Part shown: piece by piece, positions 21,872 to 63,432 of the stretch
How the letters are laid out: each line of letters starts with the position of its first letter
Numbering within the stretch: the first letter of the stretch is position 1
Assembly: GCF_000151665.1 (NCBI RefSeq)
Contig: NW_013171815.1
Location: 75,153 to 139,152, forward strand
Direction: 5' to 3'
DNA length: 64,000 nucleotides
Source of the DNA: Blastocystis hominis
Taxonomy: Eukaryota > Sar > Bigyra > Opalinata > Blastocystidae
The notes under the pieces: model-generated
The model's input: the letters and a program-made list of their open reading frames with translations, nothing else
Database searches by the model: none
Told to the model about the DNA's origin: nothing
Made by a program: the position numbers and the translations under genes

Positions 21872-21874
21872 AGC

Positions 21875-21889: not shown

Positions 21890-21892
21890 CGA

Positions 21893-23039: not shown

Positions 23040-23047
23040 AACAAACA
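23040..23047 (-). terminator. TGTTTGTT at fixed distance after D-serine dehydratase stop
   Basis: Exact octamer on the minus strand. The T of the stop TGA is at 23052, leaving exactly four bases before the motif. Confidence 0.7.
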
Positions 23048-23049
23048 CT

Positions 23050-24315
23050 TCACCAAAACTTGGCAGGAATCCACTTATCGACCACTTTATCCCCCTCCAC
23101 AATCAAGAACTCCTTATGCTGCGCGGCCGTCATGCATGAATGATTCGGCAGAACCTCCAGCACCGTTCCCACAGGATACTTCGAGTAATCGATCGGCTCC
23201 TTCGACGTCAGCAACGCGTGCTCCTGACTCAGCCTATCCTCCACCCTCCTCCCCGCCCCTACTTCGCCACGAACAGTTCCGGATGATCCCTCACGGACCC
23301 CCAATTCTCCAATCCGCCTTTATCTTTGCTCAGCGGAATCCCGCCTCCGTCCGTCAGAATCGTATTCCGGCTCGGATACACCGACAGCACGCGCATCAGT
23401 AATCGTGCCGCGTTGTTCCGTTCCGACGCGCAGCTCCCGATCGCCACCTGCATTCGGTCGTAGCAGCAATAATTCCCCGCGTGGATCTCGTTCACGCCCG
23501 TCCAGTCCTCGTTCAGCGAGCACGCGGGCGTCGAGCCGCACGAAACGATCGGCACAGCGATCCCGTTCTCTTCGAGAGCCGAGCGAACGCGCGCCATCGC
23601 GTCTAGAGGGAAAGGAGGAAGCTGAGGAAACCTCGCTCTTCACGTGCTACGCGAATGACGTCGTCAATGGAGGGCTGGTCGTAGGAGTGGCCAGCGTGGC
23701 TGTAGAGACCCAGGAAATGACAGTTGGGGCTTTGAGTGATTCGCGTTGCCAGTTTTATGATGGAATCGAAGTCGGAAGCGTCGATACCGGCACGATGATA
23801 CCCTGTATCGATCTTGATGAAGAGATTGTAGTGGCCCTTCGTGCCTTCGAGGAGAGACACGTGCTCTTCGAGATCTACAAGAAGATTCAGGTTGCGGACT
23901 TTCTGGGAGTAGGCAGCTAGGTCATTTAGCTGGTGGGTTCCAAACGGGATTCCAAGACTACATTCATATAGAGTAATGAAAGCAAACGTTATATCCTGAA
24001 ATCCATTGTCCGCGAAAAACTTCAATTCCGCCATGGTGCTCACGATAATGGCTTGTTCTTCCTCTGGAATTCCTTCTAGCTGGATTTTGGCTCCTTCGAT
24101 CGTCTTGTGCGTCTATTCCATAAAGTTGATCCTAAGGTAGTTGCCTTCACATGGACACGCAGTTTCAGATTCTGCTTCGAGGCTCTTTCAACCATCGCTT
24201 TACAATTTTCCTATCCTTAAGGAAAAGCTCTCGACACAATTACACGGAAAACGGAAAGATCTAGCGCATACGCAGGAGTATTCACGTCCTGAATGGGATA
24301 GGGAGTGAAAGACAT
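23050..24315 (-). CDS. D-serine dehydratase / D-threonine aldolase family (PLP, Zn)
   Basis: Fold-type III PLP enzyme that breaks down D-serine or related D-hydroxy amino acids. The 370-aa product starts with NTPAYALDL, has the PLP-lysine region RVHVKTHKT, FIKIDTGYHRAGI, GLYSHAGHSY and EIHAGNYCCYDRMQ, and ends with the DSD domain sequence EVLPNHSCMTA, where His and Cys bind the catalytic zinc. Five introns at 24211-24243, 24113-24144, 23958-23987, 23603-23631 and 23234-23262. The 24113-24144 intron begins GC rather than GT. The 30-nt intron 23958-23987 contains no stop and preserves frame if retained. D-serine versus D-threonine as substrate cannot be decided from sequence. Confidence 0.9.
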
Positions 24316-24387
24316 GAGATAACAAAGATTTTGTATGTGATGGCGTATCCTCCGTCCCTGTTTTTCCCTGGCCAGGAGACAAGTTCT

Positions 24388-24772
24388 ATGTCCTTTTCTG
24401 GGATTGACGACGAATATGATCCCGAGTTCCCTTTGATCCTTTCAATTTGAAATAGGAAACCTAACTCGTATTTGTTAGTGCGTGAAAAAAGAGAAAAGGA
24501 GGAAGAAGAGAACCAACGCGTGTTTTTGGTGAAACAACAGCTAGCTGAGGTATATATACCTGACTTTTTATAAAACGCAGAATGAAAAGCACCAAAGAGA
24601 AGAAAGAAGACGATTAGAAGAGAACATTCGCAAGGGAACTATTTTTGACGCCATTCCAACCTCAGGTATTGGACGTGGAACCCAGATGACGCTCCCTGCA
24701 TGGATGACAGAAGTAAGTGACACGACATGGACTTGACAGTAGGGGAAAGCCCATTCAGAAACGAAATTGTAG
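24388..24772 (+). CDS. Short charged protein, 97 aa, unrecognised
   Basis: Four exons separated by introns 24426-24455, 24550-24580 and 24713-24742 (30-31 nt). The product opens MSFSGIDDEYDPEKPNSY, continues with a long highly charged helix (REKREKEEEE..., RREERRRLEENI-like) and ends GRGTQMTLPAWMTEGKAH. The EYDPxxPNSY opening resembles the N-terminal segment of SPF45/RBM17-type splicing factors, but no G-patch or RRM follows, so this is only a hint. It is divergent from the D-serine dehydratase, with 73 bp between starts, and convergent with the CstF64-like gene. Confidence 0.65.
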
Positions 24773-24798
24773 TCATGTAATAGTAGTATACATGATGC

Positions 24799-24813
24799 GT
24801 TTGTTGAAACAAA
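24799..24813. terminator. Palindromic 3'-end element between convergent genes
   Basis: GTTTGTTGAAACAAA lies between the stops of the 97-aa gene (24772) and the CstF64-like gene (24821). It carries motif-like arms for both strands, with one mismatch to TGTTTGTT on each. Confidence 0.45.
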
Positions 24814-24820
24814 TTCCCAA

Positions 24821-25391
24821 TCACTCCGTTCCTAACAAATAATCCATTCCGGGAACTGCTGTAGTCAGCATTCCCAGTTTATGCTCGGCTTCTAACAAGG
24901 CATACAAGAAACTTGGGTTCTGCTGCAACAAACGCTGCGCCTGAATAGGATTTCGCTTTGCTACTTCTCCCAATTTCTGTAATTTCGAATGTAGCTCCTC
25001 ATCAGTGAATTCCTTTAAATAAATCGGCTTTGAGTCATCCGTCGTTGCTCCACTCTCTGCTTCTTCGTCTCTTTTCATCGCATCTTTTGCCATTTTAGCC
25101 GTCAACCTCTCTCCGCAAAATGCTTCTCGCTTGCAATATTGGATCGCTTTTGTGCATTCTTCGATTGACTTAAATTCGATAAAGCCATATCCATTGTTAA
25201 GATTCTTATCTTCACGCATTGAAAGGCTACATTTAACAATAACATGCTACTCGTACTTTATTGAGACGGGTTTGACGCATGGGAGAAAGAAAAGAACGAG
25301 ATCCTTTCCTGTGGTTTTATATGGTATATCTTCTACTATGGCATTATATTCGAACAAAGGATAAACAAAAAATTGTATTTTCGATTTGCAT
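24821..25391 (-). CDS. Short CstF64/Rna15-like RRM protein (3'-end processing)
   Basis: CstF64 binds the GU/U-rich element downstream of poly(A) sites. The 169-aa product has an RRM (NTIFLEDIPYKTTGKDL; RNP1-like NGYGFIEFK) followed by the hinge-like helix NPIQAQRLLQQNPSFLYALL, which matches the CstF64 hinge that binds CstF77. It ends soon after, lacking the Pro/Gly region and C-terminal domain of animal CstF64, so it is unusually small. Two introns (25336-25366 of 31 nt; 25227-25256 of 30 nt). The ATG is about 10 bp after the TGTTTGTT motif of the same-strand upstream gene. This is a natural candidate reader of the TGTTTGTT motif, which is inference. Confidence 0.82.
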
Positions 25392-25400
25392 ATTTCATAG

Positions 25401-25408
25401 AACAAACA
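25401..25408 (-). terminator. TGTTTGTT after the coiled-coil gene, no genomic stop in spliced frame
   Basis: Exact octamer. In the spliced frame the last codon before it is AGT followed by a T at 25413, then four bases, then the motif. Poly(A) addition after that T would give TAA. Confidence 0.65.
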
Positions 25409-25412
25409 AATG

Positions 25413-26246
25413 AACTCATCACTTCTTCTCTCGCTTTGCTACATTGCTCACACTACAAATAGGTAAAACACATTTAGTGCATACATGAGAAATAATCCCC
25501 TCCAAATGGTTGATGTACTCAAGACTCTGAGAATATCCGCTTTCCAGCTTATTCAAATATTCCGATAACTCAGAGAATTCTTTTTTGAGCGATTTCATTG
25601 ATTCGTCCTGTTCTTCCTTCTCTTTCACGACCATGCGATACAGCTCGTGATTCCGTATTTGCTCATTGGTCAAAGGTACGGAGAGGTCTTGTGGAGACGA
25701 GCCATGGAAAAAACAGCTCTAATTTCAACCATCCTAAGAAAAGGGAAACCATCTTCTCGTTGATTTGGTCGATCTCTTGGCGGAAAGATTCTCTACAATA
25801 GGGAAGAGGATTGATAGTACCTTTTCTTTTTGTATGCTTCGCTTTCTTCCGAAAAGCGATGCTCCAATACCCTCAATTCTGTCAGTCTCTTGTCCAAATC
25901 TTTTTTCAGAACTCTAAGCGTTACTGGAGAGCAATTTCAGAGTACTCATAAGAGCGATCTTTTAAAGAGCAGCTCTCAGTCAAAGCGCCAACCTTCTCAC
26001 ATAGCCGAATTTTCTCTTCCACAAGAATTGCAACCTCTCCTCTCACTGAACAAGAAATAAAATCTAATAATACACTTTTCCATATCCTGACGTGTTTTCT
26101 TGTGCTTTTCGATTTCTGTTTCTAATTCCATTTGCTTTAAGCGATAATTCTACGCAATAATTGGCAAGAGTTACAGCTACCTCCTCTAACTTGGAGATCT
26201 TGGATAGCAAATCACGGACATCTTCAGCAGAAAAGGAATTACTCAT
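25413..26246 (-). CDS. Coiled-coil protein, stop likely made by polyadenylation
   Basis: Predicted 217 aa, nearly all charged heptad-like helix (for example EKIRLCEKVGALTESC, KRLTELRVLEHRFSEE, KEFSELSEYLNKLESGY). I recognise no family. Six introns of 28-32 nt restore a continuous frame. The last one (25453-25484, GTATGC...TTGTAG) matches the local splice consensus closely. After it the frame runs CEQCSKAREEVMSS and meets no stop before TGTTTGTT. If the last intron were retained, the frame would instead end at TGA 25419-25421 with VAKREKK. A CxxC pair near the C terminus exists only in the spliced form. Confidence 0.7.
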
Positions 26247-26974
26247 TGTCCCAATGCGGATAACAATAACGATGAAAAGAAGCCATATGGAGGGAAAGAA
26301 AGGACTTGGAGGGAAATTGGATTTATAGTCATAATATCAAAAATCTCGCGAGATGGTAACATAGAAACGTGAAAAACAGTTGCGAGGAGGTGGAGAACGC
26401 AAATAACGAAAATGGAGTAGCCATAGGACAAACTGGCTATTTTTTCTGTGAATAGCATTCACAGAAAAATAGAGGAATACAAGTAATGGGTTAGATTACA
26501 TAACTTTATAAAAAAACACGTTTCAGCTGAATCCTATAGAATATTGACATGTTGCTATGACCAAATAACACAATGAACGATCGTCGTTGCATTTAAAAAG
26601 GTATTTGGGATAGTCAAAAGAGATTGGAATTTATTACTTAAATATATGTCATAGAGCGCAATAGAGTCAAAACAATGATATAATGACCCATTCTGGAGTC
26701 TAACGAAGATTATTAGAGTTGCTCTAATTCCATAATGTTGTAGTAGTAAGAAGAAATACGTGTATATTTCAAGAACACATAAATGACTAGTATCACATAC
26801 TCTCGTTCGTATTTACATAGCTGATTGCTGTATTCACGTAAAAAGGCTTGCTGCAACTAATAACCAAAATTAAAGCTCATTAATCCGGAAAATCTTAAAT
26901 GAAGAAAAATGACACATTACAATCCATTTTCATCATTTTGCGATAATACCCTTGCATTAAGACAAAATAACGTA
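26247..26974 (+). other. Intergenic, AT-rich, no gene seen
   Basis: No splice-consistent coding frame found. A 71-codon minus-strand frame at 26243-26458 is hydrophobic but lacks exon continuation or family features. Probably contains the divergent 5' regions of the coiled-coil and MORN/LRR genes. Confidence 0.5.
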
Positions 26975-29555
26975 ATGGTTACGAATCTAAACGGTTTGAT
27001 ATAAAATTGGATTTGATAAATAGGCGTATTACAACATACAAAGGAATCAAGGTATTTGCTGAGTGATTATGTAAGTGATAAACGAATAAGAACCAAAATT
27101 GGTGGGGTAGAATATGAAATCCAAACATACCAAGGGAAACACTCAAACGAGTATTTGTTGAGCGAACTAAGAGATGGAAAGATTGAAGGTCGTTGCCAAT
27201 TATTCAAGCATGGAATTTTACACTTAGCGTGGACAATGAAAAATGGAAAACGAGAGGGAGAAATAACTGAATATTGGGATGGTAAAGTATTGCACAAAGA
27301 AAACTGGAATTCGATATTTGGAGAAGATGGAAATCGAAGAATGATTGAGAATACGAAAGAAGGGTTGATAATGACAATTCGATGTACAGTGAAGCCTGAA
27401 ATGAATGATAATAAATACGAAGTGAGAAATGATGCAGAAAGTAACGTGAATGCTGAAATAGTGATTTATCGAGGCGGATTTGATAAAGAAATGAATCGCC
27501 ATGGACATGGAATTGAATATGATATGGAAAGTGGCAAAGAGAAGCTTGAGGGATATTGGGAAAAGGATAAATTGGTCCAAGTCATTCGTGAGTTTGATGC
27601 AGATAGTAACCAAATGATCGAATATGTAGTGAATGATAATTTGGAGATGTGGAATCGAATTCCTGTTTATATTGGAGGATATTGTGAGATGCGAGGAACA
27701 TTTTTAAGACATGGACTCGGATATTTGATTGATGAAAACAATGGAACAGCTATTCGTGAAAGTGAATGGAACTGCGGTGAAGAGATAAAGGGAACCGATT
27801 TGTATGAAGGATGGTATATGAAAGGATTGCAAGAAAGTATTCGAAGCGTATTGAGGAATAAGAAACCGGAAGAGATGAAGAATGAAACAGATGATGTAAT
27901 AGGCGACAAAATTACAATTAGTAAGAATGAAGAATTGATAGTCATTGATAATAAGGTGAATGACTTAGTGATAAGTTCCAATTCTTGTAATGAGTTTAAT
28001 AAACTTCATTTGAATCAATTTAACTGGCTTCGATCAATCGAAATCGGCGATGGATGTTTAGGATCAGTGAAATCATTTGAATTGAAGGGATTGAATCGAT
28101 TGAAAACTATCAAAATCGGCAAGAATTCATTTACGCAGAAAAAGAATAGTAATGGAGACAATAAATCGAAATCGCTCTGCATACTGAATTGTGAATCATT
28201 GGAATCTATTGAAATTGGACAATATAGTTTCAGTGATTTTGGAGGAGACTTTGAATTGAAGAATCTACCACAATTGCAATCCATTCAAATTGGAAACAAA
28301 AACAACTATTATGATTACATGTACAGCAGTGAAAAGTATTGGTATAACTTCTATTCCTGTTCAATTCTAATTCGAGGTATTGATATTATAATGCATGTGT
28401 AATGATTAGATCTTCCAAATCTACAATCCATTAAAATAGGTGATGCTGCATTCGGTAATTCCCAATTGATGAATCTATCCAATTTGATTTCTCTGGAATC
28501 AATCGAAATCGGCGATGAATGCTTTAAATCGTTGAAACTATTTGAATTGAATGGATTGAGCAGATTAAAGAGTTTAAAGATAGAGAGTAACTCTTTTTGT
28601 AATACTGAATTGATGAATCTATCCAATTTGATTTCTCTGGAATCAATCGAAATCGGCGATGATTGTTTTGGATCAGTGCAAACATTCAAAATCGATGGAT
28701 TGAATCAATTGAAAACGATCAAAATCGGCAAGAATTCATTTACTCAGAAAAAGAATAGTAATGGAGATGATGAATCGAAATCATTCCACATATTGAATTG
28801 TGAATCATTGGAATTTATTCAAATTGGTGATTTCAGTTTCAGTGATTTTGCTGGGGACTTTGAATTGAAGAATTTACCTTTGTTGAAAAGTATTATTATT
28901 GGTTCATATTACCAATCAAATTCCTATAGCTATTCATATTTGAGTAACAGCAATTCCAATAGAAGTTATTATTACGTCTCACACAGTTTCTATCATAATT
29001 CGTTTGTGATTCGAGGTATTGATTTGATATTGAATTGTTGAATGATGCATAGATCTTCCAAATCTACAGTTTATTACATTAGGTGATCGGGCATTCAATT
29101 ATTCCTTATCAACAATAATTGAAAGTATTGAATAAATTCGAATGAAATGAGTGATGTAGATCTTCCATCATTACAATCCATTCAACTCGGTTATAAAGCA
29201 CTTGCTGGAAGAGATGATGATGATTCAACCTCATTGATAATGCGAAGTATGATTGAGATCATTTGAAATGATTTGCTTTGTAGATCTTCCAAATCTAACG
29301 TCCATTGACTATTATGAAGGATGTTTCCAATCCCCCAGTACAGTGACATTAGAGAGTAGTTCTGAATACTGAATACTGATAGTATTTAGATATTCCAAAT
29401 CTTCAAAATGTCAATCATCGTAGAAAAGAAGGTGATCTCTATAACTATTACCCTCCTTTCCACAAAGTTCAACGGAAAACAATTACCAGTATTCCCTCTA
29501 TTCTCTTGTTCCATTTCTAGATGTCTCACCTACACTTTCCAATCTGTTAAAATAA
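26975..29555 (+). CDS. MORN-like plus leucine-rich (BspA-type) repeat protein
   Basis: Predicted 780 aa. The N-terminal ~300 residues contain MORN-like units (GRCQLFKHGILHLAW, GTFLRHGLGYLIDE). The C-terminal ~450 residues are irregular leucine-rich repeats of the kind LESIEIGxxxFxxxxxFELxNLPxLxSI. The motif KIGKNSFTQKKNSNGD occurs twice, showing recent duplication. Seven introns (26994-27023, 28377-28409, 29016-29052, 29125-29159, 29247-29283, 29356-29389, 29489-29520) are mostly 33-37 nt, longer than elsewhere, and five sit at the same place and phase just before a D/N-LPxL unit. The DNA is much more AT-rich than its neighbours. No signal peptide or anchor is visible, so surface adhesion, a common role of BspA-type LRRs, is not supported here. 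A 36-nt frame-preserving GT-AG segment near 29430 could be an extra intron. Confidence 0.75.
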
Positions 29556-29567
29556 TCCACCAACTGC

Positions 29568-29583
29568 TTGTTTCAACAAACAA
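29568..29583. terminator. Palindromic 3'-end element between LRR gene and PFOR
   Basis: TTGTTTCAACAAACAA between the stop codons at 29555 and 29624. The minus strand contains exact TGTTTGTT (29575-29582), and the plus strand has the near-match TTGTTTCA. Confidence 0.5.
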
Positions 29584-29623
29584 CGCATTAATTACGATAA
29601 ACGGACACACAAAATAAGCAAGC

Positions 29624-32600
29624 TTACTTCTTCTCGAACTTCTTCTGGAGATATTTATACAATTGTTTATCCGACATGGCCATGCGCACTCTATCCTCGT
29701 GTCTCTCGATCAGCTGCTGCTTCAGCGTGGCGTGCAGCGACGTCGCCACATCCGGCAGGCTCTTGTCCAGCGTCGTGAATCGGTTTTCTCCCTTCAGGAA
29801 GTCGCCCACGTCCGTCTTAATCTTCTTGAAATCCAGCTGGAACGGGTTCTCGCCCTTCTCCGCGCGGCGCGGATCGTAGCGGTACAGCGGCCAGTAGCCC
29901 GAAGACACCGCCTTCTCGGCCTCCTGCGCCATGCAGGACATTCCCGTCGAGGCGGGCATTCCGTGCTGCATGCACGGCGAGTAGTTGATCACCAGCGAAG
30001 GTCCGTCGTAGCTCTCGGCCTCCACGATCGCCTTGATGGCCTGGCGCGGGTCCGCGGCCACCGCGATCGACGCCACGTACACGTTCTTGTACTGCATCGC
30101 CATGCGGCCCAGATCCTTCTTCATCAGCGGCTTGCCGCCCGCAGCGAACTTCGCCACCGCGGACATCTGCGTGGCCTTCGACTGCTGGCCTCCCGTGTTG
30201 GCGTACATCTCCGTGTCCAGGACCAGCACGTTGATATCGTCGCCCTGGGCGAGCACGTGGTCCACGCCTCCGTAGCCGATATCGTAGGCCCAGCCGTCGC
30301 CTCCGACCACCCACTGCGTCAGCTTGGGCATCACGTCGATCACCTCCTCCAGCAGCTCCAGCTCCTTGTGGTTCTTCTTCTCGTTGGCCAGCAGCGCCAC
30401 GCAGTTGTCGTAGCACACCTCGCACTTGTCCGCATCGCGCGGGTTCTCCAGCCAGGTCTGCAGGTTGGCGCAGAGCTCCTTGCTCTTGGGGATGGAGTCG
30501 TCCTTCAGGATGCGCTGCACGCGCGTCGCCAGGTTGCGTCGCTTGATCAGCGTGGAGGTCATCATACCGAAGCCGAACTCGGCGTTATCCTCGAACAGCG
30601 AGGAGCCCCAGGCGGGACCCTGGCCGCGCTCGTTCACCGTGTACGGGTTCGAGCAGAAGGTGCCTCCCCACACACGCGAGCAGCCCATCGCGTTCGCCAC
30701 CATCAGGCGCTTGCCGAACAGCTGCGTCAGAATGCGCACCGACTGCGTCTCTCCGCAGCCCGCGCAGGCTCCGGGGAACTCCAGCATGGGCAGCTGGAAG
30801 GCGCAGCCCTTCACCGTGGTCTTGTCCACCAGGTCGCCCTTGTTCTTCACCGTCATCGCGAAGTCCCAGTTCTTGCTCTCCACCTCCTGCACATCGCGGA
30901 AGTTGGTCATCGTCAGCGCGTTCGTCGGGCAGTTCACCGAGCACACCTCGCACGACGTGCAGTCCATTGGCGACACCTGGATGCGGTAGTTCAGACCCTT
31001 CAGCTCGTCGCCCACGGCGGGGATCATCTTGAAGGTCTCGGGAGCGCGCTTCGACTCCTCCGCGTCCATCAGGAACGGACGGATGCACACGTGCGTGCAC
31101 AGCGTCGCGCACTGGTTGCACTGCGTGCACTTCGAGGGGTCCCACACGGGCACCTGCGTGGCGATGCCGCGCTTCTCGTACTTGGAGGTTCCGGCGGGCT
31201 GCACGCCTCCGGACACGAACTTGGACACCGGCACCTTGTCCGCCTCCATGTACAGCGCGGGGTACAGCGTCTGCAGGAACTCCGGAGTGCCCGCGGGCCA
31301 CACCTTCGGAGCGTCGTCAGGCAGGTTCGCCCACGCGGCGGGCACCTCGATCTTGTGCAGGTTGCTCAGCGACTGCTTCACGGCGTTCAGGTTCATGTCC
31401 ACGACCTGCTGGCCCTTCGAGCCGAAGCGCACAGCGATGTCCTTCTCCAGCAGCTTGGGAGCGCGACCCTCAGGCAGGATCGGGCAGAGGTTGAAGAACA
31501 CGCTCTGCATGATCATGTTGATGCGCTGCTTCAGACCCACGCTCTGCGCCACGCCAGTAGCATCGATGTTGTAGAACTGGGCCTTCTTGTTGGCCAGATC
31601 GCGCTTCAGATGGTTGGGCAGGTTCTTCTCCAGCTCCTCCAGCGTGTTCCAGGGCGAGTTCAGAACGAAGATTCCGCCCTCCTTCAGCTGGTTCACCATG
31701 TGGAACTTGCGCACGTAGGTGCTGTTGTGGCAAGCGACGTAGTCCGCCTGCTGCACCAGGTACTCCGACTGGATCGGCTCCTTGCCCACACGCACGTGGG
31801 ACACCGTCAGACCGCCCGACTTGTGCGCATCGTACACGGAGTACGCCTGCGCGTTGAAGTCGGTGTTCTTCACAATCAGCTTCACCGCATCGTGCGACGA
31901 ACCCACCGTTCCGTCCGATCCGTAACCCCAGAAGATGCACTGCTTCACATCATCGGGCAGCGTCGGCAGCGGCTCGCCGTACTCCAGAGACGAGTGGCAC
32001 AGATCGTCGTTCACACCCACCGTGAAGCGGTTCTTGGGCTCGGGCTTCTTCAGGTTGTCGAACACCGCCTTCACCATCGCGGGAGTGAAGTCCTTGCCTC
32101 CCAGACCCATCTGGCCTCCCACGATCGTCACCGGACGCTTCAGCTGGTTCATCGAAGCCACCACATCCAGGTACAGAGGCTCTCCGGGAGCTCCGTCCTC
32201 TCGGCAACGATCCAGCACGCACACACTCTTCACCGTCTTGGGGATCGCCGCGTCCAAGTGCTTCTGCGAGAAGGGACGGAACAGGTGCACCTTCACCACA
32301 CCCACCTTCTCTCCATGCTTGTTCAAGTAGTTCACCGTTTCCTCCACCGTGGTTCCAGCACCCATCACCACGATCACACGGTCCGCGTCGGGAGCTCCAG
32401 CATAGTCGAACAGATGGTACTGACGACCCGTGATGCTCGCCACCTTGTCCATCGCCGCCTGAATCTTCTCGGGAGCAGCGTCATAGAACGGCTGAGCCAC
32501 GATGCAGTTCTGCATGTAGATATCCTGAGACTGAGCAATTCCGCGCTGATACGGGTGATTCGGATTCAAGGCTCGCTTGCGGAAAATGTTCGCATCTTCG

Positions 32601-35681: not shown

Positions 35682-35799
35682 TTATGATGCGTTTTACCTT
35701 TCACGCGCGTTTGCTCAGTTCAGAAGATCTGTTGGTTGTTTGTTGGCACACATTATTTGGCTCTCCTGCGGGCAGACAGGGTACTCTTTTTAAAACGTC

Positions 35800-37224: not shown

Positions 37225-37228
37225 CATT

Positions 37229-37236
37229 TGTTTGTT
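37229..37236 (+). terminator. TGTTTGTT 3'-end motif of the Rtt106-like gene
   Basis: Exact octamer four bases after the TAG stop codon. Confidence 0.65.
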
Positions 37237-37306
37237 AAAATCATTTTTGCAGATATCTCTTTTTGAGAATACTATTCTTCTGGTTTTTCACCGAGACTGC
37301 ATTTCC

Positions 37307-38550
37307 ATGAGTAATTCTGACTACGAAGAAGAGGGGTATAAGGGAAGACGCAAAGGGCGCTCCCTTGGTCATTCTGGTAGAAACGTCGTTAGTTTTACTT
37401 CAGGAAATTCTGGACTGACTGGCGATGCTAAAATGGATGAAGAGATTCCTTCTATCGATTTGACGCCTATGTACTTCAAAGGCTTGTTTCCTTTAATTTT
37501 GTAGGGATTATAACCCTATTAAGGAGATTCAGCGCAAACAGAATCACAACGAGGCAGAAAAGAAACGAGTCCGCAATATCAACAAATGTGTGGATGATTT
37601 GAAGGAAATTCTGGATGTACAATTGTTTCTCCTTCTACTACTCATAGAAGGCCAACATTCCTCATAAGAGCGACAAAGTTTCCACCTTGGAATCTGCTGT
37701 AACATACATGCGCGATTTAATTAAGGAACGAGACCGTCTAAACACCCATCTCGGCTGTACCCATCTTCTCTATACTTTTCACCTCCAGATGTCAGTAATC
37801 TCTTGGCCGATGGAATTGGCGGAGAAGACGAAGTTCTTTCGGACGAAGACGACAACCACTTCCTCCAGGGCGAGGTCAATCACGCCTCGCTCGGCGCCAC
37901 CGGGATCACCGTCGATTCTGCGGACAAGCCTTGCGTCATGTATCCAATGAACGCCCAAGGCGACGCTCCGACGGCAGGCGACTTCCCGTGCGACAGCACC
38001 GAAGTGAACAAGCGTGCGGTGAAGGAAATGAGTCGCAGCGTGCGTCGCAACGGAATCGATTATAAAGGCATCTGGATGAACAACAGCATGCCGTGTCTCA
38101 TCGTTCAGATCAACTCGGGCAAGTTGCTCAAAGGCAACAGCTTCTTTATGAAGCTCTTCCAGTTCGAATCCATGGAGCAGCTTAATCAGCTGTCCTTCTT
38201 CGATATCATCTCTCCGTCCGACCTCTCGCTTTTCTGGAGCGAGTACAGTCAGCTCGTCAACGCGCAGCACCAAATGATGCGATCGTTCGTTTGCCCCATT
38301 AAAAATCCCGCTACTTCGGTGAGCAGCTTTGCGACGAATGAGATGTAGATCGAGATTCCTTGTCTGGTTACCATGGGATCCATCATGGATTATGATGGAC
38401 ACGTCTTCCAGGTCGCTGCTACTTTTACGCCCTTGCAGAGAGTTGATTCCGGAGCTGGAGCCACACCGACTGCAGGACTGATGCCCGGGAATGGCCAGAG
38501 ACCGATAAAGACGGAGCCCGTTCCAAATGTTCATATTTCTAAGTTTATGT
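37307..38550 (+). CDS. bHLH factor with PAS-like domain; stop codon not in genome
   Basis: Predicted 372 aa. After an acidic/basic N terminus comes a bHLH: basic region KQNHNEAEKKRVRNIN, helix 1 CVDDLKEIL, loop and helix 2 KVSTLESAVTYMRDLI. The E-box contacts His and Glu are present but the position usually Arg in class B (CACGTG binders) is Val, so a CANNTG-type site is more likely. A PAS-like domain follows (MPCLIVQINSGKLLKGN to FQVAATFTPLQ). Introns: 37471-37504, 37617-37647, 37757-37788, 38319-38348. In the final exon the frame runs through VHISKFM without a stop into TGTTTGTT at 38555 and then across the start of the next gene. Poly(A) addition after T38550 would create TAA. Confidence 0.8.
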
Positions 38551-38554
38551 GGGG

Positions 38555-38562
38555 TGTTTGTT
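38555..38562 (+). terminator. TGTTTGTT following the stop-less bHLH gene
   Basis: Exact octamer with four bases (38551-38554) between it and the T that poly(A) would turn into TAA. The next gene's ATG is 14 bp downstream. Confidence 0.7.
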
Positions 38563-38575
38563 TACAATCATTCGT

Positions 38576-44015: not shown

Positions 44016-44200
44016 ACGTGTATATTTTAGGGTGAAGATTTGTTTTATGAAGTCTTTGGAGACTTTTGTGTTCGCTTTTTGTTCGGAAACAAGCAAGGAA
44101 TCAATCAATCAAACAAACAAACAAACAAACAAACAAGCATTAGGACTAAGCAGCAATCGAACACACATGCCAACCCCAGCACGCCTTGGCTCTCACTCTC

Positions 44201-45117: not shown

Positions 45118-45183
45118 CGGCAAGAATAAAACACTCAACGAAAAAAAGTGAGCGATCCTTTCATTCAACAAACACTGTTGCAA

Positions 45184-48237: not shown

Positions 48238-48524
48238 GCTTCTGAGTAAGTATCTTCCAAAGTTTGAAGAATGCCAATTCAAAAAGTGTTTTGCAATGTT
48301 TTTCCTTGTGAATTTAATAGAATTATTATAAAAAAAAAGAATGCTGATACATGTTGAAAAGTGCTGATACTCCTATTGCTGGCTAATGAACCAAGAGGGT
48401 ACTCAATTTGTTTAGCTGTAGTTTTTTCAGAAAATGAAAGCATTTCTCCTCGCTCTCCACTGTCTTGAACAAACAAATCTCAAGCTATCAGCAACTAAGC
48501 CAGGCGAAATCCGGCAAAAACAGC

Positions 48525-53080: not shown

Positions 53081-53133
53081 TCCTCCCTTCTTTGTTCCAT
53101 CAAACACTCGCAACACATCAACACAGCGACTCT

Positions 53134-56100
53134 TTACTTTCGGATCGGGCTTCGCGTCCACTCCTCCTCGTCATCGTCCACATGGCGGCCCATCTGCGGT
53201 CGAATCGGCGACTTCGATCGCGAGAAGCCTCCTCGGTTGGCTCCGAATCTCGCCTGTCCGAACATCGGTGGATTGTTGTCATCGTCCGAATCCACCATGG
53301 CGGCATTTCGACTCTTGTTTGCAGCTCCATAGCGCGAGAACGGCGTGCTGCGGTCGGCTCCGAAAGGCTTCACGAAGGTTCGTGTCCTACCCCTCACTCC
53401 TTTCCCTTATATTTCCTACGGCGTCGTCGATCGAATCGCTGCCGTTCCAGCCGACGGTCCCGCGCCTGCTCCCATTCCCGCGCGCGTCGTGCCAGCGAAG
53501 GACCGCATGCCCAGCTTCGACAGCGTGCCCGTGATCTCCAGGTCGTCGTCCTCGTCGATCTGCTGCACCTTCTGCGACGACGGCACGAACCGGCGATTCG
53601 GCGCCGTGACCGTCGCTCGGCGGACCGGTGTCGGCGAGCGCGAAATCCGGGAGATGGGCGCGCCGAAAGTGTAGGTAGGCACGTCGTCCTCCGAGGAAGA
53701 ACTCGCGATCGCCTCCTTCTCCTCCTTCTTGTCCAGGCCAAAGTTTCCGAGCATCGCTTCCTCGTCCTCGGGCGACTCCACGGGACGCTCGCTGCGACGG
53801 TCGCGGTGTTTGTGATGGCCGTGGTGCTCGCGGTGCTCGTGATGTTTGCGGTGGCTGCGACCCTCCGGACTCTTGTGGTGGTGCTTCTTTGGCTCCTCGC
53901 TCGGCGTCGCGCGCGGACGATTGCTGCGGTTGCGCACCACGGGGCGCTCGGCGGGCAGTTCCTCTTCCTCCTCCTCCTCTTCGGGGACTTTGACGGTGCG
54001 CTTGGGCGCTTCCTCCTTCGCGCGAGGCTTCGGCTGCGGCTCCTCCTCGGAGATCTCCGGGGACTCGGTCGGCATCACCGAGCGCACGGGGGCCTTGCCA
54101 CGCGACTTCTTCGGCTCCTCCTCCTCCTCGAAGTCCTCGCTTTCGGCTTCCTTCGGCTCGGGCTCTTCCTTCTTTGCGGCAGGCTTCTTCTTGGGCTTTT
54201 CCTCCTCCTCTTCCTCGAAGTCCTCGCTGACCGCTTCCTTGGGCTCCTCCTTCTTTGGAGCAGGCTTCTTCTTCTCCTCTTCCTCCTCCTCGAAGTCTTC
54301 GCTTTCAGGCTCCTCCTTCTTGGGCTCAGGCTCTTCCTTCTTAGGCTCAGGCTCTTCGCTTTCAACTTCTTTAGGCTCCTCCTTCTTGGGCTTAGGCTCT
54401 TCTTCCTCATCGAAGTCAAAGTCTTCCTCTTCAACTTCTTTAGGCTCGGGCTTCTTCTCCTCCTCCTCCTTCTTGGGTTCTTCCTTCTTGGGCTCTTCTT
54501 CATCGAAGTCAAAGTCTTCCTCCTCGGGTTCTTTAGGCTCGGGCTTCTTCTCCTCCTCTTCCTTCTTGGGCTCAGGCTCTTCCTTCTTGGGCTTAGGCTC
54601 TTCTTCCTCATCGAAGTCAAAGTCTTCCTCGGCAATAGCCTCCTTCTTGGGCTCCTCCTTTTCCTTCTTACCGGCCTTCTTACCCTTCTTTCCAGCCTTC
54701 TCCTTCTTTCCGGCCTTCTTCTTGCCTTCCTTCTCAGCAGGCTTCTCCTCCTCCTCCTTCTTGGGCTCTTCTTCCTTGCCCTTACGACCACGACGACCAC
54801 GGCGACCTCCAGCCTTCTCGGGCTTCTCCTCCTCTTTAGCAGGTTTCTTCTCCTCTTCGACAGGCACAGGCTCCTCAGCGAGCTTAGCCTCCTCGACAGG
54901 TTCAGGGACAGGCTCAGGCTTCTCCTCTTCGACAGGCTTCTTCTCTTCGATAGGTTCAGGTTCAGGCTCAGGTTCAGGCTCAGGCTTCTCCTCTTCGACA
55001 GGCTTGACTTCCTCAACAGGTTCAGGCTCAGGTTCAGGCTTGGCCTCCTCAACGGGCTTGGCCTCCTCAACGGGCTTAACCTCCTCTTCGGCAGGTTTGA
55101 CCTCTTCAACAGGCTCAGGCTCAGGCTTCTCCTCTTCAGCAGGCTTAGCCTCCTCGACAGGCACCGGGCTCTCAGAAACCTCCATAGGCGTCTTCTCCTC
55201 CTCATCGAAGTCGAAGTCCTCTTCCTCCACAGGCTTCTTCTCCTCCGCCTTCTTCGGAGCAGGCTTCGGCGCTGGCTCCTCCTCGTCAAAGTCAAAGTCT
55301 TCGTCGCCAATCGCCTCCTTGGGCGTCTCCTCCTTCTTCACAGGCACAGGCGCCGGGACATCGTCGAAGTCACCGAAGTCATCATCTGCAACATCGGCCT
55401 TCGCCTTCTCCTCCTTCTCCTTCTTTCCAGCCTTCTTACCCTTCTTGCCCTTCTTCTTGCCTTCTTCACCCGCCTCCTTCTTCGCCTTCTTTCCGGCCTT
55501 CTCCTTCTTCTTACCCTCCTCTTTGCCTTCTCCTTCCTCTTTCTTCTCCTCCTCCTTCTTGGGCTCTTCTTCCTTGCCCTTACGACCGCGACGACCACGG
55601 CCTCGCTTCTTTCCTTCCGCCTTGGCTCCTTCCTCCTCTTCCTCTTCCTCTTCCTCTTCCTTGGGAGTTTCCTCGGCCTTCTTCTCCTCCACAGACACAG
55701 GAACAATTTCAGGCTCAGGCTCAGGCTTGACCTCTTCCACAGGCACGGGGCTTTGGACGACCTCCACAGGCACAGGCTTCTCTTCCTCCACAGGCACAGG
55801 CACAGGCACAGGCTCAGGCTCCTCTTCCTCCACAGGCGCAGGCACGGGGCTTTCAGCGACCTCCACAGGCGCAGGCTTCTCTTCCTCCGCAACCACCGCG
55901 ACAGCGGCAGCAGTAGCAGCAATCTCTTCATCCACATTCAGCGGCTTTTCAATCTTCACCACTTCGGCCGGCTTCTCTTCCACGACTTCTGCCGGAGCTT
56001 CTGCAGCCGGCTTCTCTTCCACTACCGACACATCCACCATGATCGGCTTGCTGGCTTCCTCCTTGGCAGCCGCGAGCGCCTCCTCCGCAGCTCGCTTCTC

Positions 56101-59100
56101 CATCTCGGCTCTCTTCTGTTCCTCCGCGATTCTCTTCTTTTCTTGCAGACGAGCCATGCGCTCCGCTTCCTTCGCAGCACGCTCCTTTCTTCTCGCCTCC
56201 TGACGCTCCAGACGCGCCTTGCGGGCCTCTGGATCCTCCTCCTTGTTCGAACGACGACGAATCGGAATGCGAATCACAGGCTTCAGCTCCTTCTTCACTT
56301 CTTCCTCTTCGCCTTCAGCGTCCTCGAACTGATCGCCCACTTCCACTTCGATCTTCATCGCCTCCTCTTCCTCGGCCTTCTTCGCCTCCTCTTCAGCCTT
56401 CTTCGCCTCCTCCTCGGCCTTCTTCTTCGCTTCCTCCTCTTCCTTTCGCTTCTCCTCCTCTTCCTTCGCCTTGCGGCCACGACGTCGTGCAAATCCTTCT
56501 CCAGTACCCGCGTCACGAATCACCATGCCCTTCATCTTGCCCTTCGTCTCAGCCAAGTCCAGATAGTTCTTGTAGAAGTCGCGGATCTCATCCTCCGATC
56601 GTGCCGAGGCCCAATAACGGACTTCCGTGATGCGCGCGAAGGTTCCCGGACCTCCGATCACGATCTGATCGTTTTCTTCGAGAGGCTCGCGCTCAGGACT
56701 CGCGATCTTGCTCTCTTTCACCTTCACTCCGTCCACGAACAGAGTCACCTTCGTCTCCTTCTTGTTCACGCAGTCAATCGTGGCTGCGATGTGCTTCCAC
56801 GTTTCTCCAGGCACCACTACGTCTCATCCCTCGCATCCTCCACTCACACGACTGGTCCGTGAACATCTTTCCGGTGGTCGTCTGGAACACCACGTATCCG
56901 TTCTCCAAACCGAACGACCACATGCGGTCCTGCGGAGGTCCTCGCGAAATCAGAGGCTATGCATTACTTTCCACGCACAGACTCCAACCATGTATCCATT
57001 GCGAGGATCGCGCTTCACCCACATTTCCAGCGTGAAGAAACGACGCTGCGTATCGGGGTGGAAGTAACCCACACGCAGCGTGTTGCGCTCCATGGTAATC
57101 GGCGTGCTCAGCGTGCCCGGGTCTTCCTTTCCGTCCTTGTTCCAGCCCAGCACCAGCTGCTGCAGCGTTCTCACCTTGTCGCCGTCTCCCTTGTCCATCG
57201 GCGCATCGCAGGGCTCAATGTGCGCGGAACCGTTGATCGTCATGTTGTTCGCCTGGTTACTGTTATCGTACACCACCGTGGGGTTCGGGTCGTCACGATT
57301 CTCCATTCGCAAGTACAACACCACCGAATCTTCGCCTTCGTTGCCCACCATCAGAGCGGCGCCTCCGAAGCGAGGATCGTCCTCTACGTCTCATTTCCTT
57401 CTCTCGCGCATACCGGCCTCGCCCTCTTCCTCTTGGATCTCCACGATCTGACGCGCTCCCACCCAGGCAGCGATGTTGCTCATCTCCAGCAGCGGATAGA
57501 CGGACGGCAACGGCTCCGGCTTGGGGATCTCAGGCACCTACGCATCACCCACCGGCCTCCGAATCTACCTTGGGAATTCGCTTCTGCTTCCAGACGGGCA
57601 GCTGCGCCTCGTTTCCGCCCACCAGCAGCGTGGGGATTCGCTGCGGCAGACTCAGCGCGACGATGCTGTCATTGCCTCGCTTCTTGCTCTTCTGCAGCTT
57701 TCCAGAGAGAATCTCCGCGGCCTCCTTGATATCCGGTCGCAGACCATCGGCTCGCGAAGCCTGCTGCTGCAGCAGGGCGGAGGTTTGCTCGCCTCCGATG
57801 TTCAGCAGCTGCATCAGCGACCAGTCATCTCCGCACAGATCCATACACTTGCGAGCCGTGTTGAAGTCTCCGCAGATGGCGGCCAGCGACGCCAGCGACC
57901 GCAGACGCTCGGCCAGCGTGGATCGCGGATGAGGCAGCAGCGCCGTGAAGGGCTTTCCATCCTCCGCGGATCGGAGATACTCCTACAGAAATCAGCACAC
58001 ACGCCGTCCATCGCGCCTACCATCAGCTGGGGAGAGTTCTGAAGCAGCTCCTGCAGGGCGTCGTCCAAGCGGTGCAGCGAGATCGCAAGATCGGACTTGA
58101 TCTCGGGGGCGATTTGCGGGTGATCGGGGAACTCCTTGTTGCCTCCACTTCGCACAATGGCGTAAGCCACGCCCAAATAGCCCTTCTTTCGAAGCTCTCG
58201 GATCAGCTCGCCCGTCACTCCAGCGTTGTAACCGGGACCCACAGGCTTGGGACCCGTCGGATCCTCCTCCGCGGGTTTGTACGCGTACTGCTTGATGATC
58301 CTCATCATCAGCTCCTCGCGGTTCTCCACGTAGCCCTCGGGGGCCTTCAGCAGTCCCATCACCAGCGGCTCCAGCGGCACCAGAGCGCGCGACAGCAGCT
58401 GCGTGAGACGGTGGTCTCGGTGCTTGCAAGCGTAGAGCACTCGATCGGGCAGCACGGACATCAGCATGGGCTCGGTAGCGTAGATATCCAGCGAGCCAAT
58501 CGGTCGCTCCTTGCCGTCGGCCATCATGTAGTAGAGACGGTTGTCCGAGCACGTGTACATGATCGTGTAGCCCAGCCACTGCATGGAGGTCGTCATACGC
58601 GCCGTTCCTCCAATCAGCACGATGGAAGGACGGCTCGCAATGATGTTGTAGTCCATATCCACCATCAGCACTCTCTGCCCCTCACAACCCGTCCTTCGTT
58701 CCTACCTGGTTCGTTCGAATCGCCAGCAGGGGACACTCGTCCTTCTCGATCTGCTGCCAGGCCGTCTCGCACACCACTTCGCCCGCGTGGAAGTGCAGAC
58801 CCTTCGATTTCTGCATCGGCACGTAGGAAGTGTTGCCCTCCTCCTTGTTCTTCGAATACACGAGCCACTGCGTGCCGTCGGTGTCTTCCAGCACGTACTG
58901 CACCACAGCCGAGCCGTCCTTCTTCTTCAGAGGCGTGTACATGATCTTGCGAACCACCGAGGTCAACTTCCACATGCGCATCGTCTGCGAGACCAGCTCG
59001 TACGCGTTGTCTTCCTTGTCCTTCCGACTCGTGGGCGTCTTCAGATTGGACAGCTGGCAAGTACGATACTCCAGCTGGTTTCCTTCCTGGTTCACCATCA

Positions 59101-61111
59101 GATAGCTATATTTCTCACCCTCTCCACTCACTCCTACCAGCTGTTGTTCAGAGGCAGCACATCCTGGCAAGGCTCTTCCTTGGGCATCTCGCTGTACATC
59201 ACGCTGCCGTAGAAGTGGCTGAGCTCCTCGTCCGTGGGCTCTTCCTCCGTATCGCGCTCCTCCCACTCCTTGATCATCTTGTACGCCTTCTGCGCAGGCA
59301 GGAAGATGAAGAATCGACGCTTGTCGTCCTGGGTGTCCGGCACGTACATGTAGTTATTATCGTTGTTCGGATCGAAATCAGGAGCGTTCGTATCCACCAT
59401 CGGATTCAGCTGCTTCACACGCGCTACATCTCACACAGCCTCGTCAGTACACTACGCTTCTCGGAAGCCTCGGGACGCATGAACAGCACCACATCCATTC
59501 CATCCTCGCTCACACGCAGTCCATCCGATCGCACGACGATGGCTTCCTTCTCCGCGCCTCGCACCACCGTAGGCAGCTCGACCAGATAGTGCGAGAAGTG
59601 CTCACGCATGCCTCGATAGTTCACCACGAAGCTGGGACAGGGCTTGTGGTCCTTCAGCTCCAGCTCGTAGTTCGTGAAGAAGTGGATCAAGGGCATCGTC
59701 AGCGGTGCGAGCGTTTCCTCTGTCGTTCCCTCGTAGAACGCGCGGAACGGGACCTGGCGAGGCGAGGCGGAGGTCATTCCTCGGCCCAGATGCGTGTACT
59801 TATCCCAGAGAGACAGACCCACGACGTGGCCGTTGGGGAAAGAAAGCATGATCAAGTTCTCTCGAGGGTGGCAAGACAGAGACGGAACGACGTACGCCGG
59901 TTGGTCGTCCATCAGCTCGTTGATGCGGTACAGCTCGCACAGTCGCATGGCCTTTCGCGGAGCATATCTAGCGCTCATTCCCCGGCCGCGGTCCTACGTC
60001 CAGATGGTCAGATACGTGCCTTGGTCGCCAGTGACAATCGCAAACAGCAGCGGCTCGGTGGGGTGGAAGCACAGCGAGACGATGTTGTCTCCGTAAGGAC
60101 AGGCGTTCAGACGGCAGCACCACGCACCCAGAGGGCACGAGTACACGACGATGCTGCTGTCGTTGCAGCCCACGGCGAAGATCTTCATCTGGGGATGCCA
60201 GCAAATGCAATTGATGTTGTACACCTCGCCCTCCACGCTGTGCAGACGATCTTCACGCGCCTCCAATCCACGACGCATATCCAAAACCTTCTCCAGCGTC
60301 ACTTCGGCTATGCATTACGATCCGGACCCGATCACTACGGTAGTCCTCTTCCTCCTGTTCATCTTCCGGAACATCGCCGAATCCGCGCTTACCGATCTGG
60401 TACAGCAGAACCAGACTGTCGCTCGTTCCCACGGCTAGCGTGCAGCCACGATAGGAGCAAGCGGCAGCAGTAACGTAAATATCGTATTTAATTTTGGATT
60501 GAGAGAGGTCGTACTCGGACATCATACCAGTCAGGCAGTAACCCTAGCGGTGAGCCGCAGAAACTGCCTCCTACTCCCATTTCTTGAGCGTTGTATCCAC
60601 AAGCAAAACCAGATGGGTTGATTCCTCCGTGAGTAGCAGCAAACACTCCGGAGAAAGACTCTTCCACTCCGTCAGTAGTAGCCACATAGTGGTGGCGAGT
60701 CATATCGTAAATAGTGAGAGCAATGTTATCTTGGCAAGCGACAACGTATTCCTGTCCCTTTTTCGAGAAGGACGAAAGCAGCTGCACTACACTTCGATTC
60801 GAAGGTACTCCAGAAGGAATGGTCGAAATCAGGCCTCCAGTGAATAAATCGTACTCCTGGATGCACTGCTTTGTGTGTACGTAATATGATGGCTTACGAC
60901 TATTGAAACAGACTGGGATAGGAATATCTCCAGTGTAATCAAATTGTCGTTCAAAACGCTTCTGCAAGAACATTCCTAGACGATTAGCATACACAAAAAT
61001 CAAGCCCAACTGCGCTAAGACGCTTTGAATAATAAGATATGAGAAACAACAATCATGGAACTCATGAACCGCAATACATATGTGTTTTCCATGGGACGAC
61101 ATGCAATACAT
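53134..61111 (-). CDS. Giant WD40-solenoid-LamG protein with KE/PE-rich tail
   Basis: Predicted about 2,530 aa from 13-14 exons (introns 29-38 nt; CDS divisible by three). Residues 1-740 form WD40-type propellers (FAVGCNDSSIVVYSC, SLCFHPTEPLLFAIVTGDQG). Residues about 750-1150 are an alpha-solenoid like coatomer alpha/beta' (LLSRALVPLEPLVMGLLKAPE; CGDFNTARKCMDLCGDDW). Residues about 1160-1400 are a LamG/concanavalin-like domain (VLYLRMENRD, TLEMWVKRD, WKHIAATIDCV, LFVDGVKV). The last ~1,120 residues are Lys/Glu/Pro repeats with many DFDFDEEE blocks, a His-rich patch and a basic, Ser-rich end. A coat-like trafficking role is suggested only by the propeller-solenoid plan. A 36-nt in-frame GT-AG segment near 61030 may be an extra intron. 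The start at 61111 is the first good ATG; a nearby one is in frame. Confidence 0.8.
54110..55880 (-). repeat. Imperfect KE/PE and DFDFDEEE repeats
   Basis: Low-complexity coding sequence of the giant protein's tail, dominated by GAG/AAG/CCT codons. Several copies of EDFDFDEEE separated by Lys/Glu/Pro runs suggest expansion by duplication. The codon bias leaves a long antisense open frame. Confidence 0.85.
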
Positions 61112-61208
61112 GATTTGCTTTCGATTCAATTATCAAATATAGAGTGAATATCAACAAAGAAAACGCATAGAGAAAAGTGGAAAAGGAAATCAAAAATTGG
61201 ATTCCTGC

Positions 61209-61918
61209 TCAAAAGACTTGGCGCGAGGCAAATCGAGAATAGAACACATTGCGTGCACTCTCTATCGAGGAACCATTCGAGCGATTGCGTACTTTGGGTC
61301 TAGGAGGAGTTTGCAGGGCAATTTCCAAGGAACGAGCACGCTTCTTCGATTCTTCTACTGCATTATTTAGCTTTTGGTAAATCGAATCGATCTAGCCAAA
61401 AAAACACGAACAAAAATTATGTACAATAGACTCCATAGAAGGGAGGGATGACTTTTTCGAAGCACTGGATCGCAGTGATGCACTGGAAACATAGGACGAG
61501 GTATCGATTTCAAAATCAATCGATGGTTGGCGTAATTGAGTCATCGATCCTTCTTGAAACTACATAGAACAACGATGTGCTGACTCACGATGCGTGGAAT
61601 GTCGTCCATGGAGTAGTCTATGGATTGTTGAGAAGGTTGAAACAAGTGTAAATCGGATAAGTGAATTGTCTCAGCTTCAGAAAGAGTCGAACCTCCTGTC
61701 TATTCCGAATCAAAAGAGAGAATGAGAATTCACCTTCGAGAGAATGCTTTCCTTCAAAACACTATTGCAATCGATGATTTCTGTATCATTGGACTATACG
61801 TGGATAGCTATACAAATTAGGCTACTTTGACAGAGAATGAATCCTCTTGCTTATCTTCAGTAATGTCAGAGAGTTGCGAAATATCCCCAGACAAAGGATC
61901 TCCATTGCACTCCGACAT
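61209..61918 (-). CDS. Unrecognised 193-aa protein, Ser-rich
   Basis: Five exons; introns of 32, 34, 29 and 33 nt; CDS divisible by three. The N-terminal part is acidic and Ser-rich (MSECNGDPLSGDISQLSD), the middle is Ser-rich (SYVSSASLRSSASKKSS), and near the C terminus a helix (SIYQKLNNAVEESKKRARSL) is followed by a basic tail ending FYSRFASRQVF. No domain is recognised. It looks disordered and could be a regulated adaptor. Confidence 0.65.
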
Positions 61919-62009
61919 CCCTACATATACTCAAAACAAATAAGAAATGAGAGACACGAAGATTGTCAACAAACAGCACACTATATACAGAACTATATAT
62001 TACAAACGT

Positions 62010-62769
62010 TTAAGGCATCGCATCTCTTAGCATCTTCATAATAGAAGTGATCTCTCCCCGAATCAGAACTTTTTCCGCAGTACTTAAACTCTCCTAATCC
62101 TTACAAAAATAGTTTAAAAAATCACGGTTTTCGACTTTGTTAAATCATATGAATTGCTGTTCTTTGTCAGACGAACAAAGGTATCCACACTCCCTTGGTT
62201 GCGCAAAATCTGTATTCTACAAGTTACACTACCACTATTGCTGAAAACTTACTGAGATAAACATTCTGGAGCAGACACCTATACATCAACTGCAAACCAA
62301 ACAATTACAGGCTTCACCTCGGGAGGATGGTCCATCACATGCCTTCTCTGTACCGTTTTAAAAACATGCGTATACTGACCTTGTTCCGGACTAAAGTGAA
62401 TCGCCAATCCCGTGAGTACATGGAGTCATCATCAACGAGAGCTAAATTTCCATCGATTAGCTCAAATCCGAATTCTTTGCAAAAGTCAGAAACCTAGATT
62501 GCAAATCTCACAAAACCACACTTTCATCTTTTGTACACGAGAAGATAGTTGAGATATAAGGATAATAAGGTTGTCTCGAATAATTTTCGCTTCCTTCATA
62601 GCGTTATCCTGTAGCTCTGCGCAATTCAGTTGCACTACACGGATCACTCTATCCCACAAATCGGTTGCTTACATTTTATCTTTAGTTGGTCAAAAAATTC
62701 CTTCTTCTTTATATACTCAGGATCGGAGCAAATATCAATATCTTTTATCGCATTTCTTGTCTCAGCCAT
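62010..62769 (-). CDS. Unrecognised 187-aa helical protein
   Basis: Seven exons; introns of 38, 28, 32, 30, 36 and 32 nt; CDS divisible by three. Charged helices dominate (YIKKKEFFDQLKIKLQLNC, NAMKEAKIIRDNLIILISQL), with a central FCKEFGFELIDGNLALVDDD. No family is recognised; size and helix content would suit a small kinetochore, motor-adaptor or centrosomal subunit, but nothing specific supports this. A TGTGCTGTTTGTTGAC motif about 70 bp after the stop separates it from the next gene. Confidence 0.65.
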
Positions 62770-62837
62770 GCTCGGTAATTCCGGATTGGTACGAAGTGAT
62801 TCCATACAACAGGAATCAATCTAATTTTGGATTTTCG

Positions 62838-62845
62838 AACAAACA
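62838..62845 (-). terminator. TGTTTGTT at fixed distance after ZMAT5-like stop
   Basis: Exact octamer on the minus strand. The T of the TGA stop is at 62850, leaving exactly four bases before the motif. Confidence 0.7.
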
Positions 62846-62847
62846 AT

Positions 62848-63432
62848 TCATCCCCACTCGACGGGCGGTGCACTTTCAAAAACACTTGAGTGGACAGGCA
62901 GAAGGGAAGGTGGCAAATCCACGCGCAAGGGTAAAAATCGTTCGCGGAATGTTTGGGGGGCTGATTCTTGATTTCCTTCCTCCGCATTGTTTGTCTCTCG
63001 TGCATCTGCTGCAGCCAGCGTGCAGTCTGGATTGGCTTCAACAGGAACCCAGGGCGTATCCTCGATTGGGCGCACGGTGGTCTCCAGCATTCCATCTACG
63101 ATGGCACACTCTGCAAAAGAATACCTGGAATTACGCTAAAACCATCTCGAATATCGTCCGTGATCCCGACGTGGCGATAAGGACATTTGTTTCCTAGTCG
63201 GCAAAACCCACTCTTTTTAAAAGTCATGCAGACTTGCTGAGTCTTGGAACGCTGAACAGCAGCTGCCGTTTCTATTCAAAATAGCAAAGAATCAAGCCTT
63301 ACCTCGCTTCGATTCGTACCACATGCGCACATTGTTTTGATGAAGCTGAGATTGAAAATGCGCGTCTCTTTTCTCCTTAGAATCAATAAATGACCGTCCA
63401 CAATAGTCGCAGTAATACCTTCGCTGAGGCAT
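62848..63432 (-). CDS. ZMAT5-like (U11/U12-20K) zinc-finger protein
   Basis: 174 aa, two introns (31 and 29 nt). The N terminus is a U1-type C2H2 finger, RRYYCDYCGRSFIDSKEKRD with HFQSQLHQNNVRMWYES, followed by a CCCH finger CMTFKKSGFCRLGNKCPYRH (C-x8-C-x5-C-x3-H). This two-finger order is that of ZMAT5, a protein of the minor-spliceosome U11/U12 snRNP in animals and plants. The C-terminal half is acidic and unstructured. U1-C is the main alternative but lacks the CCCH finger. Confidence 0.82.

Follow-up and report, generated by a model that had tools for sequence, protein, structure and literature searches.

In Blastocystis subtype 7 (ST7), polyadenylation sites have been reported from expressed sequence tags (ESTs) for 2,419 genes, and in 2,333 of these genes a motif, allowing up to two substitutions, was located exactly four nucleotides (nt) downstream of the tail (Klimes et al. 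2014, PMC4159000). Polyadenylation creates the stop codon in 372 of the 2,419 genes (359 UAA and 13 UGA), and a further 90 genes encode a UAG or UGA that the tail converts to UAA (PMC4159000). In the model of Klimes et al., precise cleavage allowed the 3' untranslated region (3'UTR) to shrink until only the first base or the first two bases of the stop were left (PMC4159000). Created stops were also reported in 1,693 genes (26%) of ST1 (Gentekaki et al. 2017, PMC5608401), the motif was found independently with an attachment base that is mainly U (PMC4360255), and a joint mutation of the motif and of two Ts upstream of it reduced reporter output 324-fold (PMC6395660). The existence of created stops is restated in a later paper (PMC9896827); PMC4159010 is a news piece on the work of Klimes et al., and the subject of PMC5203790 is the Blastocystis organelle genome. 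Here, we analyzed a stretch of 64,000 nt of Blastocystis hominis (contig NW_013171815.1, positions 75,153 to 139,152; hereafter the window, whose own coordinates are used below) in which four genes present a T exactly four bases before the motif TGTTTGTT. We consider it very probable that the published 3'-end system, including encoded stops as near-neutral by-products, explains these sites.

The motif is strongly enriched in the window. We counted 23 exact copies of TGTTTGTT on the two strands, whereas 100 dinucleotide shuffles gave 2.14 copies on average (an approximately tenfold excess) and none of them attained 23. Five of the 23 matches belong to a single repeat array at 44112-44135 on the minus strand. 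Across the whole genome (18,707,701 bases on 40 contigs, both strands), 7,304 exact copies were found (3,601 and 3,703 by strand). Tandem (TGTT)n arrays also contain the signal, and TTGTTTGTTTGTT matched 774 times genome-wide.

An earlier sequence-only reading of the window had proposed that the T of the stop position is followed by exactly four bases and then the motif in a basic helix-loop-helix (bHLH) gene (T38550), a coiled-coil gene (T25413), the gene of a D-serine dehydratase (T23052) and a ZMAT5-like gene (T62850). The spacing was verified at all four positions, with an exact TGTTTGTT starting after exactly four bases at each. When the tail base is taken from the published rule, a motif with at most two substitutions is therefore found four nt past the tail base at all four Ts. 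The triplets starting at the locked T are TGA for T23052 and T62850, as had been stated, TGG for T38550 and TCA for T25413. For three of the four genes the frame rests on homology, beyond the mere openness of the frame: homology supports a terminal codon at the T for bHLH, where the stop would be created, and for D-serine dehydratase and ZMAT5, where TGA is encoded. T25413 of the coiled-coil gene is in frame only with the removal of a putative 32-nt intron (GT...TAG). The observation as a whole is partly confirmed. The proposal that the tail would give UAA at the encoded TGA codons in any case is in line with the published mechanism, and these redundant stops are the published class of 90 converted stops.

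The bHLH gene extends from its ATG to the tail-taking T at 37307..38550 on the plus strand, with introns of 34, 31, 32, and 30 nt and no encoded end stop, and its TGTTTGTT is located at 38555..38562. The prediction carries an HLH domain (PF00010), and its last exon aligns with protein P0010 of Blastocystis sp. NMH at 46% to 48% identity. The frame is open from 38349 through the T. An in-frame TAG sits in the assumed 30-nt intron, which is supported by the alignment with the NMH protein, and the match continues past this intron. The record of the NMH protein is labelled partial although it starts with M on a 623-kb contig, which would fit a missing stop. For the ZMAT5-like gene (zf-U1), the encoded TGA with its T at the tail position is found at 62848..62850 and TGTTTGTT at 62838..62845, both on the minus strand. 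Residues 4-174 of the spliced prediction (174 amino acids) align with residues 3-170 of human ZMAT5 (8r7n_E, 170 amino acids; E 1.3e-11). Both proteins end in WG and the alignment reaches the last residue of each, which indicates that the gene does end at this TGA. The idea that TGA is a sense codon was rejected since the ZMAT5 homologue ends at that TGA.

The D-serine dehydratase gene presents its encoded TGA, with the T at the tail position, at 23050..23052 and TGTTTGTT at 23040..23047 on the minus strand. The domains PF01168 and PF14031 cover its final exons. In the Pfam frame the last of these is open up to the TGA, a site at which our coding model was confident. The motif of the coiled-coil gene, also exact, is located at 25401..25408 on the minus strand, and T25413 starts the codon TCA if the 32 nt are spliced out. 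Downstream of these signals, a candidate next ATG with an open frame was found at 13 nt for bHLH, at 32 nt for ZMAT5, at 71 nt or more for D-serine dehydratase, and at 9 nt for the coiled-coil gene, where it would start a CstF-64-like gene. The open reading frame following the bHLH gene (38576 onward, plus strand) starts with MCGIGALIT and presumably resembles class II glutamine amidotransferases; no Pfam match was found in its first 98 codons.

The published system would account for these ends as follows. The GU-rich element UGUUUGUU just downstream would set the cleavage, with the last retained base exactly four nt before the element. The missing As would come from the tail, and the frame would need only a T (or TA, TG) at this place to yield UAA (or UGA). 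An encoded UGA or UAG at the locked T would become UAA, and hence would be redundant. A protein with an RNA-recognition motif (RRM) and a hinge domain would bind UGUUUGUU and position the nuclease, close gene packing may favour the loss of 3'UTRs, and an encoded stop would be subject to drift once its T is locked. The positions, three of the frames and the counts come from our analysis, and the position of the tail and the need for the signal are taken from the papers.

The distance between stop and motif was then estimated over 264 kb, composed of the window and C2:1-200000 and containing 2,500 N. The 110 exact motifs of this sample were reduced to 89 sites by merging copies at most 12 nt apart. 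Codon-triplet log-odds proved too weak to score the frame at the motifs; we used a 3-periodic order-4 coding model instead, with confidence thresholds that we chose ourselves. This model yielded 26 confident ends, 62 ends below confidence and one site without a candidate. Among the confident ends, 21 of 26 presented an encoded stop 5 to 82 nt upstream and five were at distance zero (three created stops and two encoded TGA); none was found at 1 to 4 nt. The same analysis was conducted allowing one mismatch, with a stricter tail-score filter and with 12 permuted motifs as a control (the reversed motif, which has the same repeat and T-rich context, is unfit as a null). Nine of 54 confident ends were then at zero and one was at one nt, relative to a control mean of 3.9 of 36.8 ends at zero. 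For encoded stops at zero the comparison was 3 vs 0.33 in the control, and for created stops it was 6 vs 3.6. The stop-to-signal distance is therefore broad with an excess at zero, and the tail-to-signal distance is fixed according to the published data. A broad distribution, which the sequence-only reading had named as the result that would count against it, was thus found for most confident ends, next to the excess at zero, and the T lock is confined to a subset of genes.

Two genes had also been described with five bases between T and motif. For the gene labelled AAMP (end at 21869..21882, plus strand), five bases do follow T21869, but the next base, A, is four bases before TGTTTGAA (21875-21882), a variant of the motif with two mismatches. 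The TAA of this putative AAMP gene would therefore be cut after TA, with AAGC following, at the usual four bases. The end region of TFIIF-beta is located at 21882..21896 on the minus strand, with TGTTTGTT at 21889-21882; a putative 31-nt GT-AG intron would put a TAG cut after TA in frame. A loose five-base spacing was rejected, since the putative AAMP gene would retain TA and the homology frame of TFIIF-beta has TTA at the site. The two genes converge, and the plus-strand motif variant and the minus-strand motif share one base within 21869-21896.

Several observations weigh against the published system as the explanation of these gene ends. In the frame of PF02270, the site codon TTA of TFIIF-beta (21896-21894) is not convertible to a stop by the tail, and this gene appears to be a misfit to the system. 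Without splicing of the 32 nt, the protein of the coiled-coil gene would stop at an encoded TGA (25421-25419), and its three relatives (83, 96, and 99% identity) do not discriminate between the two ends. The coding model was confident at only one of the four proposed sites, T23052. The number of control ends at zero indicates that part of the created class obtained with one mismatch is due to chance. Finally, we infer cleavage at the four sites from the published rule. The alignment of T and motif might be a coincidence in T-rich ends, with genes that end at ordinary stops elsewhere. Indeed, T is frequent upstream of the motif in the 89 sample sites (52% at -5, 44% at -7, and 43% at -6) and an ordinary TGA is present near the end of the coiled-coil gene. 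Such a coincidence is nevertheless very hard to reconcile with the approximately tenfold excess of the motif over shuffles, with the excess at zero and the lack of ends at 1 to 4 nt for exact motifs, with a ZMAT5 gene that ends where its human homologue ends, and with the published ESTs (PMC4159000); we regard it as highly improbable.

Neutral encoded stops at the tail T are expected to be as frequent as the local composition predicts. We counted the bases at this place over the whole genome irrespective of frame. A T was present at the four-base place of 4,298 of the 7,304 exact motifs; one base earlier the count was 3,329 of 7,304, and both counts include repeats. Removing the 774 copies of TTGTTTGTTTGTT left 3,524 non-repeat T sites. 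The base following the T was G at 1,573 of these sites (44.6%), relative to 717 of 3,006 (23.9%) at non-T sites, and it was A at only 320 (9.1%), whereas A follows 15 to 18% of all Ts in the 264-kb sample. The same preference was visible in the 89-site sample, in which 21 of 46 Ts at -5 were followed by G vs 23.8 to 24.8% TG overall; at the other positions from -16 to -2 this fraction was 12 to 31%, except at -11 (11/25). Stop triplets started at 574 of the 3,524 four-base Ts (16.3%), with 402 TGA and 172 TAA or TAG. A followed G at 402 of 1,573 T sites (25.6%) and at 238 of 717 non-T sites (33.2%; p 0.0002). Genome-wide, TGA at the four-base T is thus not in excess but rather in deficit. The preference of the site for a T followed by G, together with the rarity of A as the next base, makes TGA the most frequent encoded stop at the locked T.

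These counts suggest that the redundant encoded stops look like chance by-products of the preference for G after the T rather than relics or backups. We infer that encoded stops at the locked T are neutral: in T-locked genes they would be invisible to selection and at mutational equilibrium, stops would come and go freely, and TGA would prevail only through the G that follows the T. We give this part of the explanation an even chance. Several points weigh against neutrality. The composition counts are blind to frame and include motifs away from gene ends. The published ratio of 90 converted to 359 created stops (PMC4159000) exceeds the 57 to 62 converted stops expected if all ends retain only the T (p 0.0003 to 0.0016). 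This excess vanishes if 24 to 33% of the created stops retain TA, and none of the six created ends of our one-mismatch set did. A mild excess of encoded stops over composition is therefore possible.

Such an excess is what would be expected if encoded stops at the tail T were kept by selection as a backup, given that the stop would be lost if the cut fell one or two bases too late. In addition to the published 90:359 (PMC4159000), three of the eight T-locked ends that we gathered are encoded (23052, 62850, and C2:134840), the others being created (38550, 25413, C2:40163, C2:91100, and C2:127995). This fraction is above 16.3% (p 0.13), for a set that is small and includes the sites picked by the sequence-only reading, among them the coiled-coil gene with its putative intron. 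The genome-wide counts point the other way, with a deficit of TGA after the four-base T, and published sites that are one base off fall within the remaining 4% (PMC4159000); a backup function appears unlikely. Alternatively, encoded stops at the T might be relics of a recent 3'UTR shrinkage that are still decaying, which was the view of the sequence-only reading. The shrinkage itself is the published model (PMC4159000) and a mild excess over composition would be consistent with relics, but genome-wide the T starts stop triplets no more often than composition predicts, such that most T-locked ends look equilibrated. We therefore consider this view doubtful, on a par with the backup. Near-neutral encoded stops remain our preferred explanation, and the lack of a TGA excess fits the claim that they can decay freely. 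The one-way route from encoded to stop-less genes is not supported, because, at a stop frequency on the level of chance, gaining a stop is as easy as losing one. The earlier interpretation is in this sense partly supported.

A candidate reader of UGUUUGUU is encoded within the window as well. Klimes et al. described one short CSTF2 homologue of 142 amino acids and suggested that it binds the signal and positions the nuclease (PMC4159000); among the matches listed for Blastocystis and CstF, theirs is the only article that mentions Blastocystis. A profile search of the genome with the CSTF2 hinge (PF14327) returned three matches, the best of which is in the window at 24860-25018 on the minus strand (C1:100012-100170); in the control, weak matches below the cut-off were also found in 2 of 14 genomes. 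The corresponding gene (24821..25391, minus strand) would encode 169 amino acids with two assumed introns of 31 and 30 nt. Its product presents an N-terminal RRM_1 domain (38.3 bits, cut-off 20.7) and a hinge that is just over the cut-off (27.5 bits, cut-off 27). The CstF-64 RRM (1p1t) ranked only sixth of the 23 PDB sequences matched, behind PABP and others, and the assignment to CstF-64 therefore rests on the hinge. The CSTF_C domain (PF14304) was not found in this protein, which is why we name it CstF-64-like, and an exon-by-exon search of the genome gave no match at E 0.01, where an intron inside this domain of 41 positions could hide one. A second pair of RRM (40.5 bits) and hinge (26.7 bits, just below the cut-off) was found at C37:676933-677043 (L030), where CSTF_C was likewise not detected. 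The third hinge match is also on C37 (21.4 bits).

Nuclear genes as a rule carry their own stop codon, and the genes described here are examples of a published exception. With our counts, the verbal idea that redundant stops can be lost becomes a null hypothesis open to testing, namely that encoded stops at the tail T match the local composition. If the neutral reading is true, the stop signal has in effect shifted from a codon to a GU element and a single T. Such ends are also relevant to annotation because gene callers prolong stop-less genes or invent introns, as noted by Klimes et al. (PMC4159000).

Created and converted stops can be compared to several known systems. CstF-64 (CSTF2) is the reader of GU-rich downstream elements; the protein of the window shares its RRM and hinge, whereas CSTF_C was found neither in this protein nor in the exon-by-exon search of the genome. 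The stops of mitochondrial genes that are completed by polyadenylation, named in PMC4159000, likewise receive the As of UAA from the tail. These are organelle transcripts, whereas the Blastocystis ends belong to nuclear genes with a downstream GU-rich signal (PMC4159000). In mammalian PAY*, a tyrosine codon becomes a stop by alternative polyadenylation, such that a sense codon is likewise turned into UAA; PAY* yields an alternative truncated isoform, whereas the created stop is the regular gene end in Blastocystis (PMC4159000). The closest system is that of Blastocystis itself, for which the motif, the four-base spacing, and the created and converted stops are identical to what we found (Klimes et al. 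2014, PMC4159000; Gentekaki et al. 2017, PMC5608401). Relative to the published descriptions in these articles, the window shows no difference in kind and adds examples to a system whose observation, mechanism and class of redundant stops are already in print. Our additions are the genome-wide composition counts used to test the encoded stops at the T, and the explanation of TGA by the preference for a T followed by G.

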